Assembly (NCBI RefSeq): GCF_001026905.1
Contig: NZ_LAQL01000002.1
Location: 682,001-746,000, forward strand
From: Kiloniella spongiae
GTDB taxonomy: Bacteria > Pseudomonadota > Alphaproteobacteria > Kiloniellales > Kiloniellaceae
DNA length: 64,000 nucleotides
Reading direction: 5' to 3'
Positions 16,809-39,547 of the stretch are shown one piece after another. The notes beneath the pieces are model-generated. The model ran no database searches and was not told the DNA's origin. It saw nothing but the letters and a program-made list of their open reading frames with translations. Within the stretch, counting starts at the first letter, position 1. The number at the start of each line of letters is the position of its first letter. The position numbers and the translations under genes were made by a program.

Positions 16809-17753
16809 TCAAGCGTAGGCCTGGCTCATGATCGACCAATAAAGCTCGCGGCATCCCGGATAAATCGATGCCCCTAAAGAGGAATAGCTCTTTAGGGTTA
16901 TTGTGGTCGGATGGACCACTTCAGGTGACCGAATCATGGCTGGTGGGTTTGCAATCAAGGTAAATCCCAGATCAGGTAGACGACTATGTAACTCGACCTG
17001 TTTTTCTGGCACGTCAATTCTCAATTCTTTCTCTGAACGCTCTGCCACATACCTAATCATTGCCAATGCTGTTTCACTGTCTGGTGCAATCATTGGCCCC
17101 AAATGATGCTGTTCACGTTGGGGGCTAGCAAGCGTAAACCCGATAATCTCGCCCTGTTTATCCTCAACAACAATAGCGTAATCGGCTTGAAGATATCTCT
17201 GTTCCAATAACCCGTGTCGACTTGCACCAAGTGCCTTCGCATCCAAACGGATAATATTCTCTAGGTCATTTTTGTACATAGCCCGTAAGGTTACATTAGG
17301 AAGAACAGGTTCAGAATCTCTACTTAAAAACTGCTCTGGAGAACCAAAAAATTTTCTGATCCGGCCAGCGACCTCATAACCACACTTCCTATAGAGCGGC
17401 TCGCCCTCTTCTGTTGCAATCAGGCACAATACTCTTCCCTGTGCAGCTTCATGACTATGCAAAGCTTCCATCACAGCACGACCATATCCACGTCTTTGAT
17501 GACCTGGGTTCACCATAATCATCCCGATTGATGCTAGATCATCTCCATAGGGGAAAATAGCACCAGTAGCGATGATACCGCCACAGCTATCCCGAACACC
17601 GAGAAAAACCGAAACCTGTAGCATAATTTCGAGATCTTTAACGACATGAGTCCAGCCCAAGCTTTCAACCAAGGTATAGATCGCAGGCACATCATCAGGC
17701 GTTAAAACGTCAAAAAAGGCAGCTTCAGGCCTATCCGTTAACATCGACAACAA
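16809..17753 (-). CDS. GNAT acetyltransferase, two-domain
   Basis: A 314-residue acetyltransferase. The N-terminal GNAT domain carries the acetyl-CoA loop NPGHQRRGYGRAVMEAL and a second strand-helix ending LYRKCGYEVAGR. The C-terminal half looks like the second GNAT-like domain of YitH/Acetyltransf_18 proteins. The substrate is unknown. Its start overlaps the end of the acuI-type gene by 23 bases, so the two are co-transcribed; an alternative start at MLTDR 4 codons later shortens the overlap. Confidence 0.8.
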   Translation of the reverse strand: MLSMLTDRPEAAFFDVLTPDDVPAIYTLVESLGWTHVVKDLEIMLQVSVFLGVRDSCGGIIATGAIFPYGDDLASIGMIMVNPGHQRRGYGRAVMEALHSHEAAQGRVLCLIATEEGEPLYRKCGYEVAGRIRKFFGSPEQFLSRDSEPVLPNVTLRAMYKNDLENIIRLDAKALGASRHGLLEQRYLQADYAIVVEDKQGEIIGFTLASPQREQHHLGPMIAPDSETALAMIRYVAERSEKELRIDVPEKQVELHSRLPDLGFTLIANPPAMIRSPEVVHPTTITLKSYSSLGASIYPGCRELYWSIMSQAYA

Positions 17754-18723
17754 CGCGCCCCTGAACAGCTCCCTTCAGAATGGCAGCCCCTAGATCAGGC
17801 AAATCGTTGAGGGTTGCATGCTGTACCATCTTTTCCAGCTTTCCCAGTGGTAGATCAGAAACAACACGTTGCCACGCTCTTTGACGATTTACAAAAGGCT
17901 GCATGACCGAATCAATTCCCAAGAGGTTCACACCGCGAAGAAGGAAAGGAATAACCGTGGCAGGTAGCGCTGCGCCTCCTGCAAGGCCAACAGCAGAGAC
18001 CGAAGCACCATACTTCATCTGGCCAAGGACACGAGCCAGCATCGCCCCGCCAACAGCATCAACACAACCAGCCCATGTTTCGCTCTCAAGCGGGCGCTTC
18101 ACGACTTCATTCAACTCATCCCGGGCGACGATCCTGCTTGCTCCAAGCTCTTTGAGGTAATCCGCTGTATCTGGACGCCCCGTAACACCGGCAACGCTAT
18201 AGCCGAGGCTTGCCAAAATAGACGTAGCGATGGAACCAACCCCACCAGCAGCCCCCGTAACAAGCACATCACCCTGATCCGGTTTCAATCCATGATCTTC
18301 AAGTGCCATTACGGCCAGCATTGCCGTAAAGCCTGCTGTTCCCACGGCCATCGCCTGCTTTGTGCTCAAACCATCAGGTAAGGGCACCAACCAGTCAGCC
18401 TTCACACGTGCTTTTTGCGCATAGCCACCCCACCAGGCTTCACCAACGCGCCATCCGGTTAGCACTACTTTGTCACCGACTTTATAACGATCATCATCAG
18501 ACTCTTCGACCGTTCCGGCAAAATCTATACCCGGAACATGGGGATAGTTCCGAACCAGACCGCCGTTGCCCGTGATACAAAGACCATCTTTGTAATTAAC
18601 AGTAGAGTACTCCACCGCCACAGTCACATTGCCATCAACAGGAAGACTATTATTTTCCAGTTCTTTGACTTCAGAACGAACAACACCTTCTTCGGATTTA
18701 TCAACAACGAGCGCTTTGAACAT
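17731..18723 (-). CDS. acuI: AcuI/YhdH-type NADPH-dependent acrylyl-CoA reductase
   Basis: A 330-residue zinc-free medium-chain reductase. YSTVNYKDGLCITGNGG and VPGIDFAGTV match the YhdH/AcuI subfamily, and VTGAAGGVGSIATSILA is the NADPH-binding loop. AcuI reduces acrylyl-CoA to propionyl-CoA and removes toxic acrylate made from DMSP in marine alphaproteobacteria. No DMSP lyase is in view, so the physiological substrate is inferred. The start is ATG at 18723 behind AGGGA; five upstream codons are dropped. Confidence 0.85.
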   Translation of the reverse strand: MFKALVVDKSEEGVVRSEVKELENNSLPVDGNVTVAVEYSTVNYKDGLCITGNGGLVRNYPHVPGIDFAGTVEESDDDRYKVGDKVVLTGWRVGEAWWGGYAQKARVKADWLVPLPDGLSTKQAMAVGTAGFTAMLAVMALEDHGLKPDQGDVLVTGAAGGVGSIATSILASLGYSVAGVTGRPDTADYLKELGASRIVARDELNEVVKRPLESETWAGCVDAVGGAMLARVLGQMKYGASVSAVGLAGGAALPATVIPFLLRGVNLLGIDSVMQPFVNRQRAWQRVVSDLPLGKLEKMVQHATLNDLPDLGAAILKGAVQGRVVVDVNG

Positions 18724-19055
18724 TTTATTCCCTAACAATCTGATGTGGCTGGTATCTATTGGGCATCTTTTATGCGTTAATAACGGATTATATTGAGATC
18801 AAATAAGCATAACACCAAAAGAGTACTCCGCCCCGTTTTCAACTGAAAGAGAGAATTTTGCACAAGGACTATGAACCATAAAGTCACAGCTCCTATCCTC
18901 CTGAGCAAATAAATTACACAGATTTGCATTTTCCATAGGAAAGTATTCCTTTATAAATTTTAAAATTTTATCACTTTTTTTATACATTCAAGAAATAATA
19001 GGTCCGGGTCATTAAACAAAGGTCAATAAAAATTGATCAAAAGGAGACTGGAGCT
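18724..19055. other. Intergenic region before the chemoreceptor
   Basis: An AT-rich 332-base divergent region. A minus-strand frame at 18799-18936 (45 residues, AAGGA about 10 bases upstream of its ATG) could encode a small protein, but it has no recognisable family and I treat it as doubtful. TCAAT-AAAA-ATTGA lies just before the chemoreceptor ribosome site and may be coincidental in this AT-rich DNA. Confidence 0.4.
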
Positions 19056-20999
19056 ATGTCTTTTAATATAGGAAGCAGAATTTTAGCAGCAGCAGCCTTG
19101 ATTGTTGTTGTCACTTTTTCCGCTTTTATTCTTTATTTTGATATTCATCAAAGTAATGAAATTCGCTCATCATTGAAATCAAAAGTGATTGAAACAGGTC
19201 ATTTAGCAACAAATGGTATTTCCAACTGGATGAGCGGACGACAACTTCTTATCGAAAACATAGCCGAAAACATTCAATCATCACCGACAAATGAGACCGC
19301 TTGGGAAACGATTAATAAGGAAATACTAAAAACCGCTTTCTTATCTACATATTTTGGTAACAACGAGGGAGATATGACTTTGTTTCCCGATGACCCTCTA
19401 CCCGAAGATTACGACCCCAGAAAACGACCTTGGTATATAGGTACAAAGCAAACTCAAGCCAGCTTTCTAACAGAACCATATGTCGATGCTTTCAGCGGTA
19501 ATCTTATTGTAACTATGGCTAGCCCCGTACAAGATAACAGTGCCTTATTAGGTGTTGCTGGAGGGGACATTGAAATAACGACCATAGTAGATTTAATTCG
19601 AAGTGTTGATCTTGGCGGTATTGGGTATGCTTTTCTGATTAACGATCAGGGCACAGTTCTAATACACCCGGATAAACAATGGACACTAAAACCAGTTGGA
19701 GAAGTTTATCCCGAAGAAACACCAGTACTTTCCACAGAAATGCAAAACTTTGCCGAAGGTTCTTCAGATCAAATTTTCGCATTCTTTAAAGTTGAAGGGC
19801 TCCCAAGCGTGAATTGGTATCTTGGATTAGCAATTGACAGAAATGCTGCCTTTGAAGAGCTTTCCAATTTCAGGTTAACGTCGATCATCACAGCCGCTAT
19901 TGCTGTGCTTGCTATCATGGGTCTCCTTGGTGTTCTCGTCAGATTGTGGGTATCAAAGCCTGTTATTGCGATGACAGATTCAATGACAAACCTTGCCAGT
20001 GGTAACCTTGATGTCAACATTCCCGGGCAAGAACGAAAAGACGAAATCGGTTCAATGGCAGCTGCAGTTAATGTTTTCAAAACCAACGCCATAGAAATGG
20101 GACGCTTAGCACAAGAAAACAAAGAATCAACCGAACGGCATGCGCGTGACCGCCGGGAAACCCTGAACAAAATGGCAGATTCATTTGAACAGTCTGTCCT
20201 GTCCATTGTTGAAACCGTTGTTCAGGCATCCAGCAATACCCAGGACGTTGCCAGCCAGCTAACGGCGAGTGCCGAAGAGTCCAATGTACGAACCCAAGCC
20301 GTTTCAAACGCCGCCATTGAAACCAGTCAAAACGTGCAAACCGTGGCCGCAGCAACAGAAGAACTTTCTGCTGCCATCCGAGAAATTGGCGTCCAGGTTA
20401 CCCAATCTATTCAAGTAACGGCAGAAGCCGTCGATGGCGTTAACCGAACCAATGGAACAGTTACAGAGCTTGCTGGTGCCGCCCAACGTATTGGCGAAGT
20501 TGTGAAGTTGATTTCAGATGTTGCGGGTCAAACCAACCTGTTGGCTCTTAATGCAACAATTGAAGCAGCAAGAGCAGGAGATGCTGGCAAAGGTTTTGCC
20601 GTTGTTGCCTCTGAAGTTAAAACACTCGCAAACCAAACCGATCAAGCAACTGGAGACATCCAGACGCAGGTTGATGGCATTCAGGGGGCAAGTAGCCAAT
20701 CGGTGCAAGAAATCACCAACATCAGCTCAACGATCGAACGCATGAACGAATTTGCCAACGCAATTGCAGCTGCGATTGAAGAACAAGGGGCCGCAACGCA
20801 AGAAATTTCAAACTCGGTGCAGAAAGCCGCCGCAGGTACGCAAGAGGTATCAAGCAATGTTGAAGTTGTTACCAAAGCATCTTCACAAGTCAGCGCTGAA
20901 GCAAACAATCTTCTGCAATCATCTCGTGAAATGCAGTCCATGGCCGAGAACCTGCGTACCGAAGTCCAAAGCTTCCTGTCCACAGTACGAGAGAGTTAA
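19056..20999 (+). CDS. Methyl-accepting chemotaxis protein, dCache amino-acid receptor
   Basis: A 647-residue transmembrane chemoreceptor. Helix 1 is at about 8-28, a periplasmic dCache_1 domain covers about 30-270, helix 2 about 275-298, then HAMP and a cytoplasmic signalling domain with the conserved hairpin tip ([19 protein letters not shown]). The sensor domain has Y119, R124, W126, Y127, D144 and D171, spaced as in the published dCache amino-acid motif of PctA (Y121, R126, W128, Y129, D146, D173). So an L-amino acid is the likely attractant. The start follows AAAGGAG. No CheB/CheR-tethering pentapeptide is seen at the C-terminus (TVRES). Confidence 0.9.
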
Positions 21000-21155: not shown

Positions 21156-22331
21156 TTAAAGATCAGAGAAAAACCCAAAGTTATTCTTACCCTTTTTCTT
21201 AATTGCATACATGGATTGATCAGCACAGTTCAAGAGCTGTTCTGGCGTTGTTCCGTCATCAAGTGAGAAGGCAATCCCGATAGAAGCACCAACTCTGGCT
21301 TCTGTATCATCAAGAACAAAAGGAACATTCAGCTGCTCTATCAAGGTTTCGGCAAGCTCTTTAACCCCATCCCGACTGGTCACTTCCTTTAACAGAATAA
21401 TAAATTCATCTCCGCCTATACGCGCAGCCATATCTTCAGGAGCTAAAATAGCGCGAATGCGATCAGCGACCCCGACCAGAATGGCATCCCCTGCTTCATG
21501 GCCCAGAGTGTCGTTAATCGCTTTAAAACCATCAAGATCTATAAAGAAGACCGCCGTTTTCTCGCCAGCAGTTCTGTCTTCTGCAAGAATATCCTTGAGG
21601 TATTTCAAACAAAGGCGGCGGCTTGGCAACAACGTCAGCGCGTCGTGGTTGGCCAGAAACTTCATCTTCTGTTCTGCGGCTTGTAAATCCTCGGCAAGCC
21701 AAACCATTTCCTGGGCCTGCGTTGCCATCCGTTCTTCACTATCGATCAACTCGGAAACCTGGACGTGAAGGCGTTCTTCGGACAAACGTAAAGCGTTTTC
21801 AGCTTCTATTCTCTTTTGAATATTCAGTTGCTGCTCTTCGGCAATAACCGCCAGTTCTTCAGCCTGCGCTTCCAGGCGCTCCCCAATATCACGGAAGTTA
21901 TGGCGTTCGATATCAAAACGCTCTTCCGCCAAAATTAGAGCATCCCTAACCTTTTGCTTTATTTCATTCTTTTGTTGTTTTTCAATTTCCAGAACTGAAA
22001 CCAAAGCTTTTGAAAGTAAATCATCGATCTCTTTAGCGGAAGGTTCGGCATCCCACCAGACAACATCAGAAATCCTGGTTTCGTTTTTCTTGGTGTTTTC
22101 ACTGGAATTTGAGCTGGAATTTGAGCTGGAATTTGAGCTGGAATTTTGACCTACATTAGCACGAGCGTTTTTATCGGAATAAACCTTGGCAACAAAGCGT
22201 GGCGCAAGCGTACGCATAACATAGCTTTGATCACCAGTCCCCCGACCAAGAACAAATTCTTCAACCTCAAACTCTACCCCGAGCTCCTCTTCGGGGTTAC
22301 CGAACGCTAACATTACCGAAACTACCCCCAC
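21156..22331 (-). CDS. Diguanylate cyclase (GGDEF)
   Basis: A protein of up to 391 residues that makes c-di-GMP from two GTP. An N-terminal acidic region of unknown fold is followed by a Ser/Asn linker (three NSSS-type units), a coiled coil of about 120 residues, and a C-terminal GGDEF domain with an intact RIGGDEF active site and FIDLDGFKAIND. The product-inhibition site is not canonical: APED stands where RxxD is expected. It has no membrane segment. GTG at 22331 is the longest start; ATG at 22313 is equally possible. Confidence 0.88.
   Translation of the reverse strand: MGVVSVMLAFGNPEEELGVEFEVEEFVLGRGTGDQSYVMRTLAPRFVAKVYSDKNARANVGQNSSSNSSSNSSSNSSENTKKNETRISDVVWWDAEPSAKEIDDLLSKALVSVLEIEKQQKNEIKQKVRDALILAEERFDIERHNFRDIGERLEAQAEELAVIAEEQQLNIQKRIEAENALRLSEERLHVQVSELIDSEERMATQAQEMVWLAEDLQAAEQKMKFLANHDALTLLPSRRLCLKYLKDILAEDRTAGEKTAVFFIDLDGFKAINDTLGHEAGDAILVGVADRIRAILAPEDMAARIGGDEFIILLKEVTSRDGVKELAETLIEQLNVPFVLDDTEARVGASIGIAFSLDDGTTPEQLLNCADQSMYAIKKKGKNNFGFFSDL
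22102..22149 (-). repeat. 12-bp tandem repeat coding for a Ser/Asn linker
   Basis: CTGGAATTTGAG is repeated three times in perfect register, with a fourth degenerate copy. It encodes the SSSN linker of the diguanylate cyclase in frame. Multiples of 12 bp allow length change by slippage without a frameshift. Confidence 0.85.
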
Positions 22332-22644: not shown

Positions 22645-23547
22645 ATGACGATGGAAAAAGCGACTCAAGACCAGGCAACAATTAGCTCCTCAAAAGAGTT
22701 GACTAGTAATAGTCTTCCCAATAAAGCGTTGCGTGTGGTTTTAGAAGGCAACACCTTTACTTGGGTAATCACCATTCTCATTTTGATCAATGCCGTCACA
22801 TTAGGACTAGAAACCAACTCCAGCCTAACACCTTTCCAGACAGAACTTCTCCATTGGGTCGATAAGATTATCTTGGTTATTTTTTCTCTGGAGCTCGCTT
22901 TAAAATTTTACACCTATCGATTAGGCTTCTTTAAGTCTGGTTGGAATATTTTTGATCTGCTCATTGTCACAATCGCTTGGGTTCCAGCCAGTGGTGCTTT
23001 GGCAGTCTTGCGTGCCTTGCGTATTCTGCGTGTTTTGAGGTTGATTTCCGTAATTCCGCAGATGCGTCGGGTCATCGGGGCAATCGTTGCTTCTATTCCC
23101 GGTATGCTTTCTGTCGTAGGCGTGCTTTCCATCGTCTTTTACGTGGCCGCAGTTCTGACCACCAAGCTTTTTGGCCAACACCCCGATCCCAACATGCAGG
23201 AATGGTTCGGGTCGGTTTCATCCTCGGCTTATACCCTCTTTCAGATTATGACGTTGGAAAGCTGGTCCATGGGGATTGTTCGTCCAACAATGGAAATTTT
23301 CCCCCATTCCTGGATTTTCTTTATTCCCTTTATCATCATAACCAGCTTTGCAGTCTTGAATCTCTTTATCGGTATTATTGTTGATGCCATGCAGACATCA
23401 CACGAAAGCGACACCGACGAAAAGATAACAGAAATGGCAAACATCACACATGATGATCTCCAGACTCTTATCAACCGTTTTGATGTCCTGGAAAACAAGA
23501 TCGACCAGCTATCTGATTCTGATACGCAGCCTTCAACCAAGAGCTAG
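22645..23547 (+). CDS. Bacterial voltage-gated sodium channel (BacNav)
   Basis: A 300-residue single-repeat ion channel that would form a homotetramer in the inner membrane. Six membrane helices are visible. S4 carries arginines every third residue (R123, R126, R129, R132). The pore loop contains TLESWSM at 203-209, the sodium selectivity filter of NavAb- and NavMs-type channels. A cytoplasmic tail ends in a short coiled coil (LINRFDVLENKIDQL), also typical. Such channels are linked to motility and pH or salt response in marine and alkaline bacteria. It is convergent with an MscS channel gene. Confidence 0.93.
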   Translation: MTMEKATQDQATISSSKELTSNSLPNKALRVVLEGNTFTWVITILILINAVTLGLETNSSLTPFQTELLHWVDKIILVIFSLELALKFYTYRLGFFKSGWNIFDLLIVTIAWVPASGALAVLRALRILRVLRLISVIPQMRRVIGAIVASIPGMLSVVGVLSIVFYVAAVLTTKLFGQHPDPNMQEWFGSVSSSAYTLFQIMTLESWSMGIVRPTMEIFPHSWIFFIPFIIITSFAVLNLFIGIIVDAMQTSHESDTDEKITEMANITHDDLQTLINRFDVLENKIDQLSDSDTQPSTKS

Positions 23548-24683: not shown

Positions 24684-25172
24684 ATGGCAAAGCCTATAAA
24701 GTTTTATACTCGGGGTTTTGACGAGAGTTTTTTAGATCGATGTGATGTGCGAATTGCTGCATTCTATCAAATGTGGAAATCAAAGTGCAAAGATGACACC
24801 ATCCCCTCCCGAGCTGATTTTGACCCAATTGAGATGGTTGAGTTTTTGCCTGGCATAACTCTGGTTGATGTCGACAAAGATACTCAAAGCCTGATGTATA
24901 GACTGGTCGGCACAAACGAAGTCGCCGTTCGCGGCAAAGATCCCACTGGTGATAGTGTGCAGGAACATTTCCACGCAACAACCTGGGAAGATACTTGGGA
25001 AAATTATAGTCATGCCATCAATAATCTAGGCATAGTCTTCGATGATCTGGATATGCCAAATGCGAACGGTATTATAGTTGGCGATGAAACGATATTTGTT
25101 CCCTTAGCCCCAGATGGGAAGAACGTGAACATGGTTATGCTTTACAGCATCCAGAGAGAACCTTCCAAGTAA
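24684..25172 (+). CDS. PAS_5-type sensor protein, tandem copy 1
   Basis: A 162-residue protein that is essentially one PAS domain of the PF07310 type. ADFDPIEMVEFLPGITLVDV is followed by a Y-R-L-V-G-T strand and a C-terminal VNMVMLYSIQ strand. By hand count it is about 70 percent identical to the next gene, with a clear helix preceding the PAS core (FLDRCDVRIAAFYQMW). It has no output domain, so it may be a ligand-sensing partner of another protein. The 201-base gap to copy 2 suggests separate promoters. Confidence 0.78.
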   Translation: MAKPIKFYTRGFDESFLDRCDVRIAAFYQMWKSKCKDDTIPSRADFDPIEMVEFLPGITLVDVDKDTQSLMYRLVGTNEVAVRGKDPTGDSVQEHFHATTWEDTWENYSHAINNLGIVFDDLDMPNANGIIVGDETIFVPLAPDGKNVNMVMLYSIQREPSK

Positions 25173-25373: not shown

Positions 25374-25862
25374 ATGACAAAACCTATGAAATTTAACGCC
25401 CGGGTTTTTGATGAGAGTTTTCTCGAACAATGTGATCAACGGATTGCCGCATTCTATGAAATGTGGAAATCTAAATGCAAAGACAACACCATTCCCGCCC
25501 GAAGTGATTTCGACCCAATCGAGATGGTTGAATTTTTACCCGGAATCACGCTGGTCGATGTGAATAGCAAAAACAAAGAACTCACTTATCGCCTCGTCGG
25601 GACAAAAGAAGTCGCTGTCCGGGGGAAAGACCCGACAGGTGAGGCTGTGAAGGATAATTTTCATGCAAATACATGGGAAGATACTTGGGGCAATTACGGC
25701 CATGTCATTGATACCAAGGGCATCGCCTATGACAATTCGGATATACCAAATTCAAACGATGTCATGGTCCGGGATGAAACAATTTTTGTTCCCCTGTCGC
25801 CAGATGGTGAGCAGGTAAATATGGTGATGCTCTATAGCATACAAGGGAAAGCTTCCACGTAA
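25374..25862 (+). CDS. PAS_5-type sensor protein, tandem copy 2
   Basis: A paralogue of the preceding gene of the same length (162 residues), colinear from end to end with no gaps. Most differences cluster at about residues 64-71 and 106-133, in the regions that would surround the PAS ligand pocket. The core strands are unchanged. This pattern suggests duplication followed by change of ligand or partner specificity. Function unknown. Confidence 0.78.
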   Translation: MTKPMKFNARVFDESFLEQCDQRIAAFYEMWKSKCKDNTIPARSDFDPIEMVEFLPGITLVDVNSKNKELTYRLVGTKEVAVRGKDPTGEAVKDNFHANTWEDTWGNYGHVIDTKGIAYDNSDIPNSNDVMVRDETIFVPLSPDGEQVNMVMLYSIQGKAST

Positions 25863-37654: not shown

Positions 37655-39547
37655 TTGAATTTGGTAGATATTATAAACAAGCCTGTTCCAAACGAGTTCT
37701 CTCCTCGGATGGACTGTACTGTCAAAAAGCATTGGCGTCCTTCAATTGCCATGGCTCTCTCTTTTGGCTTTGGCAGCATGACAATGATCGCGCTGGCTAT
37801 AGTTATATGGCTTTCCTTCGATACTGCCCGGGATAATACCTTTGCTTTAACAAGGGAAGTCACAGAAGTAACTTTCGGCTCCATTCGTTCGCATCTGGAC
37901 AAAAACCTAAACGCGGCCGCACGCCAAGTGACCTATATGGCAGATCTTATTGAACACGGTTTGTTGGATCCAGATGATGAAAAAGCCATAACTCAAACAA
38001 TCAAAGGAGCTCTTGCCGCAACACCTCAGGTTCATGGCATGATCCTTTTAAAAACAAATGGTTCATCTGTGAGGGCGGGCTGGGCGGATGCCACATCCTT
38101 TATCAGTCACAACGAAAGGGGTGACAATGAATACCGCTTTGCAGCTTTGCTACAGAATATAGGTCAAACCCGACAAGTTTATTGGGGTGGCGTTGTCTGG
38201 GTAGAGGAGCTTGGAGAGCCTTATATTTCAGTATTCCATCCTATCTACCAAGGTGATAAATACCTCGGTGCGATCGGGGCCGTCATTTCTATCAGTTCGC
38301 TTTCCGATTACTTTAATAAGTTGGATGAAGAGACTGGCAACCACACTTACCTCTTGCTTGACCGCAACAAAGTCCTGGCCCATCCGTCCCTGATAGATAT
38401 GAGCCGTTCCGGACTATCCGCAGAGAACCCCCTTCCAACTCTAAATCAGGTTGTTGATGGTAATCTCCGGCGAATATGGAATGAGCCCCTGTTTGATTTC
38501 ACCGATATACTTGGCAATGGTGACATCAAGGGCCATGCGGTTGACTCTTTCTCTGGAGAACTTTCTTTTCTTCACACCAGTTTTTCTGACTATGGTTTTA
38601 AAGACTTAACCCTAGGTATCTATTTCATGGAAGGTGAGTTGGAGGGCTATTACGAGCGGCTTTATCTTACCGGTTTTGCTGCTCTGGTTATTGCTTTGAT
38701 TACTGTCATCATCATATTTTTCTCTGGTAGATTTATTGCCATTCCTCTCCAACGTCTTGCCGAAACATCGCAACAAGTTAGTCAACTGGATCTTGTTCAC
38801 ACACAACGCCTACCCGGCAGTATATTCAGAGAGCTGGATACGGCAGCAACTGCTTATAATTCGATGCTTGGCGGACTGAAATGGTTTGAGAACTATGTTC
38901 CCAAGAAGCTCGTGCAACAGCTTATGGAAACCAATGGCGAGGGCATTATTTCCGAAGAGCGGGAAATAACTGTCATGTTTACCGACATTGTCAGCTTTAC
39001 CCCGCTGAGCGAATCAATGCCCGCGACAGAGCTTGCTAACTTGCTCAATCATCACTTTGATTTGTTGGGTGCCATTATCGAACAAGAAGGCGGCACAATC
39101 GATAAATACATTGGCGATTCAGTCATGGCATTCTGGGGTGCTCCGACACAGATGGATGATCACGCCAAACATGCCTGTAATGCAGCTTTGCGCATTGAAA
39201 AAGCACTGCAAGAAGACAATAACCACAGAAAAGAAATGGGCCTGCCTGCTATAAACATTCGAATAGGCATTCATAGCGGCCTTGCCGTTGCCGGCAATAT
39301 CGGGGCCAAAGGACGTGTTAACTACACTTTGATTGGTGATACGGTAAACACCGCACAACGCCTAGAAAGTCTTGCAAAAGATGTTCTGACAACCAGCTCA
39401 GAAACCGCAAAAACATTGATTTCATCCACGACGTGGAACGATATCAAAAACGATCCCAAGATGAAAACGACACCAAAAGGATTTTTTGCTCTACGAGGTA
39501 GAGAAACTGAAACAGAGGCCTATGAGTTAAAAAACCCAGAAGCCTAG
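37655..39547 (+). CDS. Membrane adenylate cyclase (class III) with sensor domain
   Basis: A 630-residue protein. Helix 1 is near 30-52, a Cache-like periplasmic sensor follows to about 340, helix 2 near 345-368, and a HAMP-like linker leads to the cyclase domain at about 425-615. The metal-binding Asp residues are in MFTDIVSFT and KYIGDSVMAFWG, and the Lys-Asp pair with N-T-A-Q-R fits ATP as substrate, so it probably makes cAMP. The TTG start lies only 8 bases after the M48 stop, so the two may be co-transcribed. ATG at 37709 is an alternative. Confidence 0.88.
   Translation: MNLVDIINKPVPNEFSPRMDCTVKKHWRPSIAMALSFGFGSMTMIALAIVIWLSFDTARDNTFALTREVTEVTFGSIRSHLDKNLNAAARQVTYMADLIEHGLLDPDDEKAITQTIKGALAATPQVHGMILLKTNGSSVRAGWADATSFISHNERGDNEYRFAALLQNIGQTRQVYWGGVVWVEELGEPYISVFHPIYQGDKYLGAIGAVISISSLSDYFNKLDEETGNHTYLLLDRNKVLAHPSLIDMSRSGLSAENPLPTLNQVVDGNLRRIWNEPLFDFTDILGNGDIKGHAVDSFSGELSFLHTSFSDYGFKDLTLGIYFMEGELEGYYERLYLTGFAALVIALITVIIIFFSGRFIAIPLQRLAETSQQVSQLDLVHTQRLPGSIFRELDTAATAYNSMLGGLKWFENYVPKKLVQQLMETNGEGIISEEREITVMFTDIVSFTPLSESMPATELANLLNHHFDLLGAIIEQEGGTIDKYIGDSVMAFWGAPTQMDDHAKHACNAALRIEKALQEDNNHRKEMGLPAINIRIGIHSGLAVAGNIGAKGRVNYTLIGDTVNTAQRLESLAKDVLTTSSETAKTLISSTTWNDIKNDPKMKTTPKGFFALRGRETETEAYELKNPEA

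Follow-up and report, generated by a model that had tools for sequence, protein, structure and literature searches.

The window analysed here, the whole stretch of 64,000 nt from Kiloniella spongiae (assembly GCF_001026905.1, contig NZ_LAQL01000002.1, positions 682,001-746,000 of the forward strand), encodes a receptor that we judge, with a probability of about 0.9, to be a canonical dCache_1AA amino-acid chemoreceptor. Amino acids are very likely its ligand class, and the receptor most likely steers the cell by them. Pfam searches of the 647-residue protein returned dCache_1 (3.8e-21), HAMP (3.9e-10) and MCPsignal (1.3e-30). The PF02743 domain is flanked by two hydropathy peaks (residues 1-32 and 269-305), as in dCache_1 receptors, and the HAMP and MCPsignal domains, together with CheW-domain proteins in the same genome, place the protein among the chemotaxis proteins. 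It belongs to a well-known kind, an ordinary chemotaxis receptor, and represents a sound annotation rather than a new system. The gene is organized as follows.

19056..20999, + strand: methyl-accepting chemotaxis protein, PctA-type, 647 aa (TM, dCache_1, TM, HAMP, MCPsignal)
19056..19151, + strand: first transmembrane helix region, residues 1-32 (hydropathy windows from residues 1-14 above 1.6)
19158..19826, + strand: periplasmic dCache_1 ligand-binding domain, residues 35-257 (PF02743; alignment to PctA 5ltx)
19860..19970, + strand: second transmembrane helix region, residues 269-305 (hydropathy windows)
19938..20087, + strand: HAMP domain, residues 295-344 (PF00672)
20439..20894, + strand: MCP signalling domain, residues 462-613 (PF00015)

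The best solved relative of the sensor was PctA of Pseudomonas aeruginosa (PDB 5ltx; E 1.3e-63, 42% identity), followed by 6pxy, which we take to be Pseudomonas CtaA, and then by PctB and PctC. PctA (also PDB 5t65 and 5t7m) has the same domain type, and residues 29-275 of the window receptor, 247 in all, aligned to it without a gap, so that every position equals the PctA number minus 2. The original prediction had been that Y119, R124, W126, Y127, D144 and D171 keep the PctA spacing. We found all six residues at these numbers (codon starts 19410, 19425, 19431, 19434, 19485 and 19566, respectively) and the spacing to be exact, although as a list of the motif the prediction was right in part. 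We took the definition of AA_motif from papers quoting the original 2022 motif paper; as given there, it comprises Y121, R126, W128, Y129, Y144 and D173 in PctA numbering (PMC9796306), or, as a pattern, [YFWL]....[RK].W[WYF]-n-[YF]-n-D (PMC11237719). Five of the predicted positions belong to it, whereas PctA D146 is a ligand contact outside the motif and Y144 had been left out. Since Y142 occupies the Y144 position, the motif as quoted is complete in the window receptor (Y119, R124, W126, Y127, Y142 and D171). The residues concerned, with one further ligand-contact position, are these.

19344..19346, + strand: S97 (TCT), at the position of the PctA ligand contact F99 (PctA alignment, orthologue codons)
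19410..19436, + strand: Y119, R124, W126 and Y127 of AA_motif, carboxylate side (residue check, PctA alignment)
19479..19481, + strand: Y142, motif residue equivalent to PctA Y144 (PctA alignment)
19485..19487, + strand: D144, equivalent to PctA D146, a ligand contact outside the published motif (PctA alignment)
19566..19568, + strand: D171, equivalent to PctA D173, amino-group side (PctA alignment)

The six motif residues of PctA and its D146 are thus identical here, and the pair D122-R124, which forms a helix-forming salt bridge in PctA, is kept as D120-R122. The D146 position is Glu in PctB and variable among relatives; its counterpart in PctC, Asp149, faces the ligand amino group (PMC6974571). 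By chance, AA_motif is expected 1.4e-7 times per domain, and none of 200,000 composition-preserving shuffles showed the exact pattern. A permissive form was kept in 33 of 35 homologues. Among the 28 homologues from outside Kiloniella, the six motif columns matched the window residue in 86-100% of cases, compared with a column mean of 38%, and the D144 column did so in 79%. Homology tells more about the motif than the shuffle statistic does, and it points to a family trait rather than to chance.

We propose the membrane-distal Cache module as the binding site of an L-amino acid whose carboxylate would be held by Y119, R124 and W126 and whose amino group by Y142, D171 and probably D144, with Y127 supporting the pocket. 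Binding would alter the signal passed through the second transmembrane helix and HAMP to the MCP domain, which would feed one of the CheA/CheW systems of the cell and bias swimming; both the Che system served and the attractant or repellent sense of the response are presumptive. The domain order, the motif, the homology and the CheW-domain genes at two loci are the observed elements of this route. An AlphaFold model of the receptor, built from a four-sequence alignment, reached a mean pLDDT of 42.3, which is too poor for fold or pocket geometry, so the pocket geometry given here rests on homology.

The part of the pocket that meets the ligand side chain differs from that of PctA. Y101 is kept, but F99 is replaced by serine (S97) and several of positions 109-118 are changed, among them F109 (M107), M111 (L109), R112 (F110) and S115 (D113). 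The ligand range of PctA therefore cannot be transferred to the window receptor, and, with these side-chain contacts changed, the confident prediction does not extend to particular amino acids. At the S97 position F is found in each of the seven Kiloniella orthologues (codon TTT in K. majae), none of which shares the serine of the window receptor, suggesting that the ligand range of the latter may have shifted. The F99S change relative to close orthologues offers a small natural test of the side-chain pocket setting the amino-acid range. It also bears on the idea that the motif is kept while the altered end of the pocket admits a narrower or non-proteinogenic ligand, such as GABA, a beta-amino acid or taurine, which we consider possible but unlikely. 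PctC, the GABA receptor of P. aeruginosa (PDB 5ltv), likewise has serine at the F99 position, and this residue, Ser101, contacts GABA in the crystal (PMC6974571); the core R, W and D are shared as well, and the changes at R112 and F109 are further departures from PctA. PctC is 35% identical and differs in length by 3 residues. Against the idea, PctC carries Phe at Y144 and Ala at G171, whereas Y142 and G169 are retained in the window receptor, and the pocket as a whole is nearer to PctA (24 of 33 positions) than to PctC (20 of 33).

In a relative from another family (59% sensor identity), the receptor gene adjoins a His/Arg/Lys-type amino-acid ABC transporter. The Kiloniella receptor locus adjoins DMSP genes, not amino-acid genes, which counts against the amino-acid reading. 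In K. majae and in three more genomes (G009, G013 and G014), lysR, dmdA and an acuI-like gene precede the receptor. The K. majae dmdA (L013:3602-4735) matched the NCBIfam DMSP demethylase NF009133 with 518.6 bits against a cut-off of 410, and dmdA in the other three was assigned by position and similar N-terminal sequence. Every one of the eight Kiloniella loci read, including the window, has the acuI-like gene close to the receptor; in the window it is the following.

17731-18738, - strand: AcuI/YhdH-family (acrylyl-CoA reductase family) gene, next to the receptor

Judged by its genes, the locus is a putative DMSP-catabolism block in most Kiloniella. The acuI-like gene and the receptor are separated by 317 bases (18739-19055), of which 60 match the acuI-dmdA spacer of K. 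majae and about 120 its lysR-receptor spacer. Because this gap retains sequence from either side of the pair, dmdA and lysR appear to have been lost from the window genome between about 18874 and 18936. The block shared in K. majae with the DMSP demethylase, lysR and the AcuI/YhdH-family gene, and the constancy of the acuI-like neighbour, would fit a receptor for DMSP or a DMSP-derived compound, a reading that we regard as very improbable. The receptor stays in the window genome although dmdA and lysR appear to have gone from the locus, which argues against a strict DMSP role, and we rejected it as the main reading. Furthermore, no acuI, dmdA or lysR genes lie close to the orthologues from other families, and an amino-acid motif with R124 is unlike the amine-type pocket that binds betaines.

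In three Kiloniella genomes (G012, G009 and G014) the receptor is preceded, on its own strand and at a distance of about 176-211 bases, by a second gene for the same sensor domain.

L031:1468-2259, + strand: stand-alone dCache_1 protein, signal-peptide-like N-terminus, complete amino-acid motif
L032:1381-2232, + strand: stand-alone dCache_1 protein, signal-peptide-like N-terminus, complete amino-acid motif
L033:1492-2283, - strand: stand-alone dCache_1 protein, signal-peptide-like N-terminus, complete amino-acid motif

These proteins, 263-283 residues long, are hydrophobic at the N-terminus, carry all six motif residues and lack a second transmembrane segment, HAMP and MCP domain. They are 29-31% identical to the window receptor and retain the motif at that distance. 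The tree joins them to the receptors from these three genomes (98/98), on a long branch whose length makes the placement less sure. Such a grouping would fit a local duplication of the receptor sensor with rapid change afterwards. We did not find such a protein in the window genome or in the remaining genomes sampled from the class. Free dCache proteins beside receptor orthologues are the more unusual lead, and the best one for follow-up. That the Kiloniella receptor, with its altered side-chain pocket and its place in a DMSP-catabolism block, uses an amino-acid-type pocket to sense DMSP or a closely related compound, helped in some species by a free periplasmic duplicate of its sensor, seems extremely unlikely.

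The suggestion that the window receptor is an amine-type (dCache_1AM) or purine-type (dCache_1PU) sensor can be practically dismissed: the W126, Y127, Y142 and D171 positions are common to the amine type, but that class lacks a conserved basic residue at R126 and has an insertion with an R103/D133 pair upstream of the pocket, whereas here R124 and Y119 are present and the PctA alignment leaves no room for an insertion, and the purine class has McpH F167 and D169 and a glycine at the D173 position, where the window receptor has T153, A155 and D171. Returning to amino acids, a published test took six new dCache domains with the motif, and every one of the six bound amino acids (PMC11237719). SO_1056, with Asn at the D173 position, showed no amino-acid binding, and PctA D173N was reported to be without L-Trp binding (PMC9796306); the window receptor has Asp (D171) at this position. 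Because the amine and purine signatures are missing, D171 is Asp and all motif-bearing domains in that test bound, the ligand class is predicted with high confidence. Together with the full motif and the gap-free PctA homology, these points back the original prediction of an amino-acid ligand.

The window genome contains 35 MCPsignal matches above the cut-off and 12 dCache_1 matches. CheW domains were matched five times, at two loci, and three of these matches fall in long CheA-like frames. Our motif census covered the 12 dCache_1 matches and, with flanks of limited length, 30 MCP loci; of the 12, only the domain of the window receptor showed the amino-acid motif, with no other among the 30 loci. 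The analysis thus assigns a ligand class to one of the 35 chemoreceptor-domain matches of a marine Kiloniella genome. Close orthologues were found in seven other Kiloniella genomes and were missing only from one that is 77% complete, and moderately close ones (45-61% identity) are scattered in other families of the class. A scan of viral contigs found no more relatives. In the tree the PctA-type proteins of Pseudomonas branch apart, so there is no indication of a recent transfer from that genus. Among named genomes the closest is that of K. majae, whose orthologue (L013) is 88% identical over the whole protein and 77-80% in the sensor, with the same motif. Its neighbours include GGDEF and ion-channel genes, as in the window; it differs in having F at the S97 position, and dmdA and lysR upstream.

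Other genes were observed in the window. The Ion_trans protein encoded at 22645-23547 has a filter-like stretch, TLESWSM, and resembles voltage-gated sodium channels of bacteria. Across most of the Kiloniella loci read, its gene is found two genes downstream from the receptor or right beside it, often with a GGDEF gene (21156-22331, - strand, in the window) in between. At 37655-39547 a guanylate/adenylate cyclase catalytic domain is joined to a second dCache-like domain, a weak one without the amino-acid motif. Two adjacent single-domain PAS_5 genes lie on the same strand (24684-25172 and 25374-25862), and in G013, G008 and G007 a PAS_5-type gene is instead directly upstream of the receptor orthologue.
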